Source of the DNA: Singulisphaera sp.
Lineage (GTDB): Bacteria > Planctomycetota > Planctomycetia > Isosphaerales > Isosphaeraceae
Length of the DNA: 64,000 nucleotides
Assembly (NCBI GenBank): GCA_027451445.1
Contig: DAIDJG010000536.1
Span: 1 to 64,000, forward strand
Direction of reading: 5' to 3'
Part shown: one piece after another, positions 4,553 to 49,261 of the stretch
Layout: every line of letters starts with the position of its first letter
Numbering within the stretch: position 1 is the first letter of the stretch
The notes under the pieces: model-generated
What the model was told of the DNA's origin: nothing
What the model saw: only the letters and a program-made list of their open reading frames with translations
The model's database searches: none
Translations under genes and position numbers: made by a program

Positions 4553-4747
4553 ATGAGTGGACCGATCGTGCGCAAGTATGGCTTCCCGAACTTCGAAAAG
4601 ATCTTTGGCGATCGAGGACTTCAGCACGGCGTGGACGAGGAGGCCAAGCCCTCCGATACCAGCGCTGAGAAGGGCGCTTCCGAAGCATCGTCGAATCCGG
4701 CCGCGGCCGGGAAGGCGAATGATGAAGGCAAGAAATCCGCACGCTGA
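4553..4747 (+). CDS. Small conserved planctomycete-type hypothetical protein
   Basis: 64 residues beginning MSGPIVRKYGFPNFEKIFG and continuing LQHGVDE, followed by a low-complexity Ala/Ser/Glu/Lys tail. The ATG at 4553 has AGGAG upstream at good spacing. I recognise the first 27 residues as a recurrent small protein in planctomycete genomes, of unknown function. There is no membrane segment or Cys pair. It lies 127 bases after the epimerase on the same strand and ends just before a hairpin terminator. Confidence 0.7.
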   Translation: MSGPIVRKYGFPNFEKIFGDRGLQHGVDEEAKPSDTSAEKGASEASSNPAAAGKANDEGKKSAR

Positions 4748-4810: not shown

Positions 4811-5587
4811 TCAGTCGAGATCGTCGGCGACGAGAGCCTCGCGGAGCTTCTGAAGCGCTCGGGTCTTCTCGTTGCTGACCGTCTTGGGAGCCACGCCCCA
4901 TTGCGTCGCGATCTCGGCGGGGGTCTTCCCCAGCAGCGTGTCGTTGATGAGCGATGCCTCGCGTGGTGTCAGTGATTGCGCGATGGCTTCTTGAAGTGCA
5001 CCGCTTTCGTTCGAACCCGAGCCGGAAGTGCTTGCCACGTCGATCAAATCGAGGGGCTGGAAGGTCTTCTCGCGCTGGGCTCGTTTCTTCACCGTGTCGA
5101 TCGCACGGAAGAAGTCGGGGCCGTCCGCAGTCTCCCGGCTGAGCACGTCGCGGATCCCGTTCTGGCCGATATCGGCCAACAGACTGTTGAAACGGACGCT
5201 TCCTAGATTTTGGAGGAGCGTTACGTAAACCGCCTGGGTCGAGTCGTCGTGCAACTGCGGGGGAATACCCGCCCGGTACCAGGCTCGGTTCAAATACCGG
5301 TTCAGTTGGGTGAGGCCGCTGGCAACCGCTTGCGCGTCCGCCTGGCTAATCGGCGGCGCCAGCAGCTCAGAGACTTGAGACTGCCCGAGCGCGGCATCCC
5401 AGGTTGCGTTCGAGTCGGCTGTGGTATCCGTCGCGAACGGAACGGCGCTGGGCGAGACATCGTGCGCCAGGGGAAGACCGGGAAGTGTCTGCGTAGCATC
5501 GCTCAAGAGCCGAAGCGATTCGAGCGCTTCGACTTTCGGACGATAGGAACGCCGCTTCTTCCCTTTGTCTTGATCCCTGGAAATCAT
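4811..5587 (-). CDS. Sigma-70 family (ECF-like) protein with an N-terminal LEPR-XLL-type leader
   Basis: 258 residues. Residues about 14-28 (YRPKVEALESLRLLSD) resemble the LEPR-XLL signature that normally begins very large exported planctomycete proteins. After a low-complexity linker of about 50 residues comes a sigma-like region: LNRYLNRAWYRAGIPPQLHDDSTQAVYVTLL resembles region 2, and the C-terminus LTPREASLINDTLLGKTPAEIATQWGVAPKTVSNEKTRALQKLREAL (about residues 205-252) is a region-4 helix-turn-helix. A DNA-binding sigma domain behind an export-associated leader is unexpected. I recall similar proteins in Isosphaeraceae, so it may be a lineage family. Its role could be a membrane-tethered or autoregulated sigma factor, but that is inference. 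No anti-sigma gene is adjacent. Confidence 0.7.
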   Translation of the reverse strand: MISRDQDKGKKRRSYRPKVEALESLRLLSDATQTLPGLPLAHDVSPSAVPFATDTTADSNATWDAALGQSQVSELLAPPISQADAQAVASGLTQLNRYLNRAWYRAGIPPQLHDDSTQAVYVTLLQNLGSVRFNSLLADIGQNGIRDVLSRETADGPDFFRAIDTVKKRAQREKTFQPLDLIDVASTSGSGSNESGALQEAIAQSLTPREASLINDTLLGKTPAEIATQWGVAPKTVSNEKTRALQKLREALVADDLD

Positions 5588-5793
5588 GCTTGCCCTCTTA
5601 GCCCATCGCGCCGACCGGATCCGCTCTCGGTCTCTCTCTATAACCCGGCTGGAACCAACCTTAGAACGCGAATCACGCGCATTTGGTTCTGTTCCAGACT
5701 AAAATATTGCACGACTCAGAGCGAGACCAAACGACTTACCTACCCTCTACGATAGCATGCATGCAATTGTTCGGGAAGCCCTTGAGATTTGTG

Positions 5794-36470: not shown

Positions 36471-37025
36471 ATGGGCAAGAGGGAGGGCAAGGAGTCGATC
36501 GTGGATGGACAGACCCGACAGGCGATGAAGCTCTGGACGTTGGCTCAGCCGGTGGTCTCGGCGTTTGTGACATCGGTGGTGCGCGACTTCACGGCCCGAG
36601 ATGACGTGCTGCAAGAAGTTGCGATCGCGGTGATCGAATCGTTTGACCGTTACGATCCAGCTCGACCCTTCGTGGGATGGGCGCTCGGCATTGCGCGGAA
36701 CCAGGTGGGACTCTATCTAAGGAGGTTGGAACGCGATTGCTTGGTCTTCGACAACGCGCTCATCACCTGTCTGGCCTCGACGTTCGAGGCGGTGCCGGCG
36801 GAAGGTACGCGGTCACTGGATCTCCTCAGCGAATGCCTGGGCAGGCTCGACGCAAGAGCTCGAGAACTGTGCGACCTCCGCTACGTCCACGACCTGAAGC
36901 CGATCGCGATCGCCGGAAGGGTCGGGATGACGGCGAATTCGGTGGCGAAGGCGCTCCAGCGGATTCGCGACCAACTGCGCGAGTGCATCGAGCAGAAGTC
37001 CGCGCTGCAAGGAGGTGCGCCATGA
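36471..37025 (+). CDS. ECF-type RNA polymerase sigma factor, planctomycete type
   Basis: About 184 residues from ATG 36471 (a GTG precedes it at 36468). Region 2 is FVTSVVRDFTARDDVLQEVAIAVIESFDRYDPARPFVGWALGIARNQ. Region 4 is LDARARELCDLRYVHDLKPIAIAGRVGMTANSVAKALQRIRDQL. It directs polymerase to a regulon. Its stop overlaps the next ATG (ATGA), pairing it with a membrane anti-sigma-like protein. Confidence 0.9.
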   Translation: MGKREGKESIVDGQTRQAMKLWTLAQPVVSAFVTSVVRDFTARDDVLQEVAIAVIESFDRYDPARPFVGWALGIARNQVGLYLRRLERDCLVFDNALITCLASTFEAVPAEGTRSLDLLSECLGRLDARARELCDLRYVHDLKPIAIAGRVGMTANSVAKALQRIRDQLRECIEQKSALQGGAP

Positions 37026-48430: not shown

Positions 48431-49261
48431 ATGAGCCATCGTCATCGGAAGAGCTTGTATCGAGACTCAACGCTCGCCCCCTACTTGAACCAGATCAACG
48501 ACACGCCACTCCTTTCGGCCGCGGAAGAGCGTGAGTTGTCCAGCCAGGTCGCCGAGGGAGACCCGTACGCTCGCGAGCGGATGGTCCGGGCCAACCTGCG
48601 CCTCGTGGTTAACATTGCACGGGAATACCGCAACAAAGGTCTCTCTCTCGAAGATCTGATCGAGGAGGGGAACCTGGGACTGATGCGTGCCGTCGAGGGA
48701 TATGACGGGGGCGTCGGGGTCCGCTTCAGCACCTACGCAAGCTACTGGATCAAACAATCGATCCGCTCGGCCCTGATCCGACATGGGAAGTCGATCCGCC
48801 TGCCCGCCTACATGGTCGTGCTGCTCGGCAAGTGGCGGCGCGCGACGGCGGCGCTGAGCGAGGAACTGGGACGGCCTCCGATGCCCGACGAAGTGGGCGC
48901 GTTGCTGGGCCTGTCCAAAAAGAAGACCGCCATGGTCGTCGTCGCCCTGCAGGTCCAGGACCTCAACCGACACGAAGACGATGTCGAGGGTGAGGAGTCC
49001 GTACTCGATTCCTTGACCGACCCGCGACACGTCATCCCCGACGCCCATCTGTCCGAGCGTGAGGAATGGGAACGGATCGCCGACCGTCTCGATTCCCTGG
49101 GAACGCGCGAAGCGGCCATCATCCGGATGCGGTTCGGGCTGGGACCCGATCAACCGATGACCCTCCAGGAAGTTGGCCGCCAATTGAACCTGACTCGCGA
49201 ACGCGTCCGCCAACTGGAACGTGGCGCACTGGCCGAGCTCGCGGCCGTGGCAAGCGCTTGA
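48431..49261 (+). CDS. Sigma-70 family factor, group 2/3 primary-like
   Basis: 276 residues. Region 1.2-like YLNQINDTPLLSAAEERELS; region 2 has NLRLVVNIAREYRNKGLSLEDLIEEGNLGLMRAVEGYD and RFSTYASYWIKQSIRSAL, the canonical primary-like 2.2-2.4; region 3 and region 4 end with TREAAIIRMRFGLGPDQPMTLQEVGRQLNLTRERVRQLERGAL. Short region 1, so a non-primary RpoD-like or stationary-phase type factor. The regulon is unknown. A terminator follows after 44 bases. Confidence 0.93.
   Translation: MSHRHRKSLYRDSTLAPYLNQINDTPLLSAAEERELSSQVAEGDPYARERMVRANLRLVVNIAREYRNKGLSLEDLIEEGNLGLMRAVEGYDGGVGVRFSTYASYWIKQSIRSALIRHGKSIRLPAYMVVLLGKWRRATAALSEELGRPPMPDEVGALLGLSKKKTAMVVVALQVQDLNRHEDDVEGEESVLDSLTDPRHVIPDAHLSEREEWERIADRLDSLGTREAAIIRMRFGLGPDQPMTLQEVGRQLNLTRERVRQLERGALAELAAVASA

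Follow-up and report, generated by a model that had tools for sequence, protein, structure and literature searches.

A planctomycete sigma factor family with a LEPR-XLL-type leader and a possible role for protein export in its control

We identified a family of planctomycete sigma factors that begin with a LEPR-XLL-type leader and that, in the reading we favor, would be gated by protein export through an address in their first 30 residues. We put the probability of this reading at about 0.4. The leader itself is genuine: it is N-terminal and under selection, and its sequence is related to that of leaders on other proteins, which are of extracellular type wherever their type is known. The member studied here is encoded in a 64,000-nucleotide stretch of Singulisphaera sp. 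DNA (assembly GCA_027451445.1, contig DAIDJG010000536.1), called the window below. Its orthologs form the LEPR clade; a sister clade of sigma factors, the Sec-like clade, has a different N-terminus.

A two-domain sigma factor

The gene lies at 4811–5587 on the minus strand, and its 258-amino-acid open reading frame begins with an ATG at 5585–5587, preceded by a purine-rich stretch. Its closest orthologs among the named genomes come from an Isosphaeraceae MAG (75%) and a Singulisphaera (66%); Singulisphaera acidiphila DSM 18658 has an ortholog as well (L112). The window holds two more sigma-70-type genes, both TIGR02937 matches on the plus strand (36528–36986 and 48569–49240), and the genome has 116 such matches. 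A small open reading frame of 64 amino acids, read by eye (MSGPIVRKYGFPNFEKIFGDRG..., 4553–4747, plus strand), is convergent to the sigma gene.

The initial annotation of this DNA had recognized a region-4 helix-turn-helix in the body of the protein, and this domain is present (4817–5014, minus strand; residues 192–257). PF00196 matches it above cut-off (7.5e-7), PF08281 (2.6e-4) and PF04545 (5.8e-4) below their cut-offs, and it has a fold match as well. Region 4 is the only part of the window protein that a sequence-based domain search recognizes with confidence. Across the LEPR sigma family, PF04545 occurs in 22 of 23 members and PF08281 in 19 of 23 (E up to 10); for region 2, the sequence search gave no PF04542 match and a PF07638 match in 2 of 23. 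TIGR02937 covers residues 96–252 of the window protein (4.7e-9) at 36.1 bits and so does not reach its cut-off of 42.9. The window protein's paralog is also below this cut-off, and one relative from the Sec-like clade (L149) scores 48.4 bits.

Region 2 (5063–5335, minus strand; residues 85–175) was assigned by the resemblance of its fold to those of sigma factors, ECF-type and others. AlphaFold2, run on 30 sequences including the window protein, returned two well-predicted helical domains at residues ~85–175 and 192–257 (mean pLDDT 74), together with a leader helix (17–33) and a second helix (59–75), both of low confidence. The best Foldseek matches of the window model were sigma factors across both domains, over residues 84–258 (SigH- and SigL-type, SigK, and sigmaE), with no match at E 0.001 or better and a best value of 7.8e-3. 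VIA-align paired the model with sigma factors at Z up to ~11; the rmsd of full-length matches was large, as a different placement of the two sigma domains would lead one to expect, and region 4 alone matched several sigma4 domains at Z ~10 and rmsd ~2.

We take DDSTQAVY to be region 2.2 and FFRAIDTVKKRAQR to be region 2.3–2.4. The D-x-x-Q-x-V of this assumed region 2.2 is invariant in the LEPR and Sec-like clades, as are the assumed region 2.4 residues, and the recognition helix of region 4 is largely invariant within each clade. According to these models, the window protein is a two-domain (sigma2–sigma4) alternative sigma factor whose sigma folds are predicted to be intact. The kept folds and the invariant residues of regions 2.2 and 2.4 argue for continued use with RNA polymerase.

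A selected leader related to those of extracellular-type proteins

The leader (5498–5560, minus strand; residues 10–30) comprises a basic stretch, KKRR, followed by Y-x-P and then VEALESLRLLSD; residues 15–30 of the window protein are YRPKVEALESLRLLSD. We could read it in 35 of the 37 genomes of family f1; among 36 ortholog sequences, 35 show it and one (L022) ends at a contig edge. From one genome (G011) there is only a fragment at a contig end, whose leader is a variant, and no copy of the LEPR sigma gene was found in another that is 68% complete (G022). In the collection of named genomes, which overlaps the numbered collection so that several genomes are counted in both, 32 of 33 LEPR-type loci carry the leader and the other (L132) ends at a contig edge. 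The search of related genomes thus turned up the same architecture, and the worry that relatives might lack the leader is laid to rest.

Y15, P17, and E20 are invariant in the 35 leader sequences, and R13 (33/35), E23 (33/35), R26 (32/35), L27 (33/35), and L28 (33/35) are nearly so; L25 is found in 31. Nei–Gojobori counts for 65 non-independent pairs of orthologs gave a pN/pS of 0.28 for the leader (residues 12–30), 0.75 for the adjacent linker (31–58), 0.46 for the helix at 60–75, 0.29 for sigma2 (90–175), and 0.25 for sigma4 (203–252). Purifying selection acts on the leader as it does on the sigma domains, and the export-type leader on a sigma factor that the initial annotation had pointed out is borne out as a selected architecture of the whole family.

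In 28 of 32 named orthologs, a start codon lies no more than 18 residues before Y-x-P (GTG in 15, TTG in 13; the window gene uses ATG), and four (L140–L143) have none within that distance. This proximity makes the leader N-terminal and leaves no room for a longer preceding signal in most orthologs. Downstream of the leader are a variable linker (5411–5497, minus strand; residues 31–59), with pLDDT below 50 at residues 34–57, and a conserved short helix, TWDAALGQSQVSELLA (5363–5410, minus strand; residues 60–75), which is modeled with low confidence. W63, D64, and A66 of the helix are nearly invariant among 23 sequences. The helix is present between leader and sigma2 in the LEPR clade and absent from the Sec-like clade.

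Usual leaders in the same and related genomes consist of a basic stretch followed by hExLE(D/E/S/P)R-x-(L/V)L(S/A). Scored with a PSSM made from 32 leaders of other proteins, the window leader reaches 14.8 bits, a value attained by 1 of 20,000 shuffled N-termini. Among 768 neighboring ORFs, from which those with an obvious sigma-type motif were omitted, the 99th percentile is 9.3 bits and the score of the window leader is surpassed twice, by a LEPR-type exoprotein at 27.5 and by one other ORF at 15.5. An hhalign comparison of the sigma leader with 32 other leaders gave a probability of 95.1 (P 3e-8, score 26.9, 24 of 24 columns), against a best score of 13.3 for 60 column-permuted profiles. 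The window leader is absent among the matches listed for NF012209 (to E 1) and among those listed for PF07595 (in one case reaching E ~1.2). The initial annotation's equation of this N-terminus with the LEPR-XLL signature therefore holds at the level of profiles but not of the curated models: judged from its sequence, the sigma leader is a divergent LEPR-XLL variant, with LR where usual leaders have R-x.

Neither a LEPR leader nor a hydrophobic N-terminus was seen in any of 60 other sigma-70 proteins, these being the best 30 of 116 and the best 30 of 148 TIGR02937 matches from two genomes.

To describe the proteins on which such leaders usually sit, we inspected the matches of the leader model. 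Thirty-seven were leader-like and five were not and were dropped (L084, L090, L099, L100, L220); from one list of non-sigma leader matches, 12 were inspected. Thirty of the 37 were scanned for domains, giving a Pfam match in 16 and none in 14. All 16 are of extracellular or surface type, judged by domain name: their domains include subtilase, matrixin, CAP, Ig-like, cadherin, VWA, FG-GAP, CBM6, CARDB, and others. We also observed a leader sub-type without the Arg at its usual position (e.g., VEALETLELLST and LESLESLTLLSG) on five proteins (L091, L092, L097, L098, L102), all non-sigma, ~180–570 amino acids long and without a Pfam match.

Families in which we did not find this sigma factor have LEPR-type leaders too, some of them many (G054 alone has 20 matches at E 0.1), which implies that the export route does not need the sigma factor. 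We know of no established working mode for the LEPR-XLL leader. The motif RRLxxExLExRxLLA (Studholme et al. 2004) is quoted in PMC8567305 as a presumed export signal; for Tuwongella, the same paper counts 52 proteins that carry a related motif.

A sister clade with Sec-like N-termini, and the genomic setting

All 37 f1 genomes encode a paralogous sigma factor, and Gemmataceae-type genomes encode a homolog. None of the sister-clade N-termini that we read carries a LEPR leader. All 38 Gemmataceae-type loci whose start could be read have a conserved hydrophobic segment such as R-x-x-MVAVVLGTAL (one more locus, L165, is cut off), and all 37 Isosphaeraceae paralogs have one such as AMALVIGLAALTA. 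The hydrophobic core of ~13 residues has a KD13 of 1.79–2.68 in all 38 Gemmataceae-type proteins and of at least 1.88 in all 37 family paralogs; 26% of 653 neighboring ORFs reach 1.8. All 38 Gemmataceae-type proteins have an n-region with a net charge of +1 to +5, and the 20 residues before the core are net positive in 33 of the 37 family paralogs and not in the other 4.

AxA sites are present in 32 of 38 Gemmataceae-type proteins, compared with 27.6 expected from shuffled Ala-rich segments, and in 29 of 37 family paralogs; three paralogs of genus g6 (L189, L201, L208) have an altered segment with no AxA in the stretch read. The enrichment of SPase I sites over composition is slight. We rejected a Tat signal because RR-x-hydrophobic-hydrophobic occurs in just 4 of 38 Gemmataceae-type proteins. 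Overall, the sister-clade N-termini look like Sec signals, as far as their residues tell. When the same thresholds were applied to both clades, 30 of 33 LEPR-clade N-termini were LEPR-like and none hydrophobic; in the sister clade 37 of 38 (Gemmataceae-type) and 37 of 37 (family paralogs) were hydrophobic and none LEPR-like.

A midpoint-rooted tree of 108 cores, in which long branches were flagged, separated the LEPR clade (33 rows) from the rest at 100/100. The Isosphaeraceae paralogs formed one group, also at 100/100, and the Gemmataceae-type rows did not. Cores of the Sec-like clade have YCxxCW and DC cysteines, with C52, C55, and C69 invariant, and were modeled as sigma factors over both domains. 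The window's genome has such a paralog of its own (L103, at G000:C110:1503–2144), with a Sec-signal-like N-terminus (AMALVIGLAALTAHATES) and the CxxC/DC cysteines.

Matches were obtained in 44 of the 59 genomes searched, with weaker matches in family f3 (6/6 genomes) and one in f6. In a draw of 244 genomes from across the phylum, a weak comparison with 13 candidates scored per genome, only the window's own genome matched at E 1e-12.

Around the LEPR sigma genes, in loci of up to ~17 kb, no neighbor family occurs in more than 13 of 33 and distances vary; these families come from simple ORF calling, and some clusters are probably antisense ORFs. By this count, no operon or anti-sigma partner is apparent in these loci, and there is no obvious dedicated protease gene. 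LEPR exoproteins beside the sigma gene were not clearly enriched, with 3 in 455 kb versus 1 in 479 kb around the Sec-like sigma genes. In two related genomes (L115:6132 and L120:3340), however, the LEPR sigma gene is followed on its own strand, after ~400 bp, by the gene of a LEPR-leader exoprotein that by eye looks beta-helix-like.

Two elements upstream of the gene, ~107–178 nt before the start codon, are nearly specific to it in the DNA searched. The first, TTGNNCTCG-N20-TA (5694–5734, minus strand), is a candidate promoter, operator, or RNA element. The second (5749–5765, minus strand) matches TGCATGCATGCTAYNRT; its conserved block reads TGCATGCATGCTAT. The first pattern was derived from 12 of 45 upstream regions, some of which represent the same genome from two collections; across the 45 it is found without mismatch in 21, with one in 16, and with two in 8. 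The resulting 37 of 45 at one mismatch or fewer compares with 3.2% in shuffles (0.1% with none, 3.1% with one). A scan with a PWM of this element, over 4.5 million positions on both strands with overlapping loci counted more than once, scored above 19 only at these sigma genes, the next score being 17.3. The top gapped pair, TCGA-N13-TTCG, is part of the same element and occurs in 5 of 23 regions versus at most 4 in 15 shuffles; promoter 7-mers were not above shuffles.

The site matching TGCATGCATGCTAYNRT is the only mismatch-free one in the genome, and 12 of the 32 regions upstream of orthologs contain the 7-mer core of TGCATGCATGCTAT (GCATGCA or TGCATGC), compared with 0.016 per 300 nt. Whole-genome searches at up to three mismatches, with a pattern taken from Paludisphaera-like sites, ranked the sigma-gene site as the single best in five of nine genomes (G024, G005, G029, G015, G036) and as tied in two (G017, G033). 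Two other sites were better in G027; in G010 the matches listed include a better site elsewhere and do not include the sigma-gene site. Neither the PWM scan nor these pattern searches found a regulon sharing the upstream element, and an Rfam search gave one match, far below cut-off, which we disregarded.

Possible roles of the leader and comparison with known systems

That sister sigma factors bear two unrelated export-type N-termini at the same place makes it likely that the leader has a role in export or at the membrane, and the Sec-like N-terminus of the sister clade argues for its use as an address of that kind. The simplest role common to both N-termini would be that of an address taking the sigma factor away from RNA polymerase. 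In the export-gated reading, the leader would direct export or membrane targeting on a sigma factor as well: it would send the newly made protein to the export apparatus or the membrane and thereby keep it from RNA polymerase, with which the sigma part presumably still works. When the export route is saturated, slow, or blocked, the sigma factor would stay in the cytoplasm, join RNA polymerase, and switch on a response, so that failed targeting would itself be the signal. Several observations count against this reading: the curated models do not list the leader, LEPR-type leaders occur in families where this sigma factor was not found, LEPR exoproteins are not clearly enriched near the gene, AxA sites and a positive n-region are imperfectly kept in the Sec-like clade, and the searches yielded no regulon.

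A wider form of this proposal takes in both clades, and we entertain it as a possible but rather unlikely extension. The Isosphaeraceae and Gemmataceae proteins would then be one export-gated family in which each factor's own signal, LEPR or Sec-like, acts as the sensor. Working export would remove or hold the factor, failed or saturated export would leave a cytoplasmic factor that reprograms transcription, and the paralog pair would monitor two routes per cell.

The main rival is a pro-sigma-like mechanism, which we consider unlikely: the leader would be a membrane-binding or inhibitory pro-sequence that holds the sigma factor on the cytoplasmic side of the membrane, to be removed by a protease. 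A short, basic, N-terminal leader with a low-confidence predicted helix, followed by a variable linker, resembles a removable pro-sequence, and PMC8999054 lists ECFs that have an N- or C-terminal extension and are activated by proteolysis. Against this, the helical moment of the leader motif is unremarkable (shuffle p 0.35) – which led us to drop the amphipathic-helix argument for a membrane tether – and the limited recurrence of neighbors (at most 13/33 loci) offers no obvious dedicated protease gene. Under the positive-inside rule, a positive n-region before a hydrophobic segment places the following domain outside. The n-region of the Sec-like clade is mostly positive and would point the sigma domain outward rather than tether it inside, and for this reason we favor gating over an inward tether.

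Both clades might alternatively consist of former sigma factors that are now exported and act outside the cytoplasm, no longer with RNA polymerase. Export-type N-termini in both clades would fit such a change, as would the sub-threshold TIGR02937 scores of the window protein and its paralog, and the invariant C52, C55, and C69 of the Sec-like clade could pair outside the cell. The sigma domains speak against it: purifying selection on sigma2 and sigma4 is strong (pN/pS 0.25–0.29), D-x-x-Q-x-V is invariant in both clades and the recognition helix largely so within each, and the models match sigma factors over both domains. Given these intact sigma residues, a full change to an exported protein is less likely than the pro-sigma-like mechanism, and we judge it improbable.

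Still less credit goes to the idea that the leader docks onto a cytoplasmic regulator or a receptor for LEPR proteins, in the manner of an ECF N-terminal regulatory extension. Such extensions are described for planctomycete ECFs, with mechanism unknown, in PMC8103513, and the shifted Arg of the sigma leader (L25 in 31/35, R26 in 32/35) could mean an altered use. However, the Arg-less related form (such as LESLESLTLLSG) sits on five non-sigma proteins – a weak counterargument, as these lack a Pfam match – and docking leaves the Sec-like N-terminus of the sister clade unexplained. Chance resemblance or a misread start would fit the absence of the sigma leader from the curated models' matches, but we reject it as highly improbable in view of the shuffles (1 in 20,000), the hhalign probability of 95.1, the leader in every ortholog with a readable N-terminus, and a leader pN/pS of 0.28, which speaks against an untranslated leader.

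Returning to the export-gated reading, the place and time at which this sigma switch works may be under the control of protein export; if export does gate it, a single protein would link protein export to gene expression. A 258-residue sigma factor with a LEPR leader and a Sec-like sister is in any case a small, tractable protein that offers a transcription read-out for the LEPR route. Searches of the open-access literature turned up no sigma factor described as having an export leader, and neither the LEPR–sigma combination nor the Sec-like sister family. The LEPR leader by itself is known, and so are planctomycete sigma factors with N-terminal extensions (PMC8103513).

Compared with the LEPR-XLL/Planc_extracel leaders (NF012209, PF07595), the sigma leader is alike in its N-terminal position, its basic stretch followed by ExLE..(R)LLS, and its profile match; it differs in being unlisted by the curated models, in having LR for R-x, and in sitting on a sigma factor rather than an extracellular-type protein. 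The Sec-like paralogs and Gemmataceae homologs share a related sigma core (~30–40% identity) and an export-type N-terminus in the same place, but have a hydrophobic segment (R..MVAVVLGTAL) in place of LEPR, CxxC and DC cysteines, and no WDAAL helix. Planctomycete ECF87–89 (original groups) have an N-terminal extension in common with the window protein, whose extension is an export-type leader; this likeness is drawn from the description in PMC8103513. With ECF sigma factors generally (sigma2–sigma4; TIGR02937), the window protein shares two sigma domains and fold matches to SigL, SigH, SigK, and sigmaE, and it differs in its 36.1 bits against the TIGR02937 cut-off of 42.9.

In Bacillus, pro-sigmaE and pro-sigmaK are held at the membrane until a protease removes their pro-sequence; with a short N-terminal pro-sequence on a sigma factor, they resemble the window protein and its leader in architecture. 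ATFS-1 of C. elegans mitochondria is a transcription regulator with a transport signal that acts when transport fails. If export does gate the sigma factor, bacteria would have their own counterpart of the ATFS-1 logic, the sigma factor and ATFS-1 sharing only this proposed logic as unrelated proteins of unrelated organisms.
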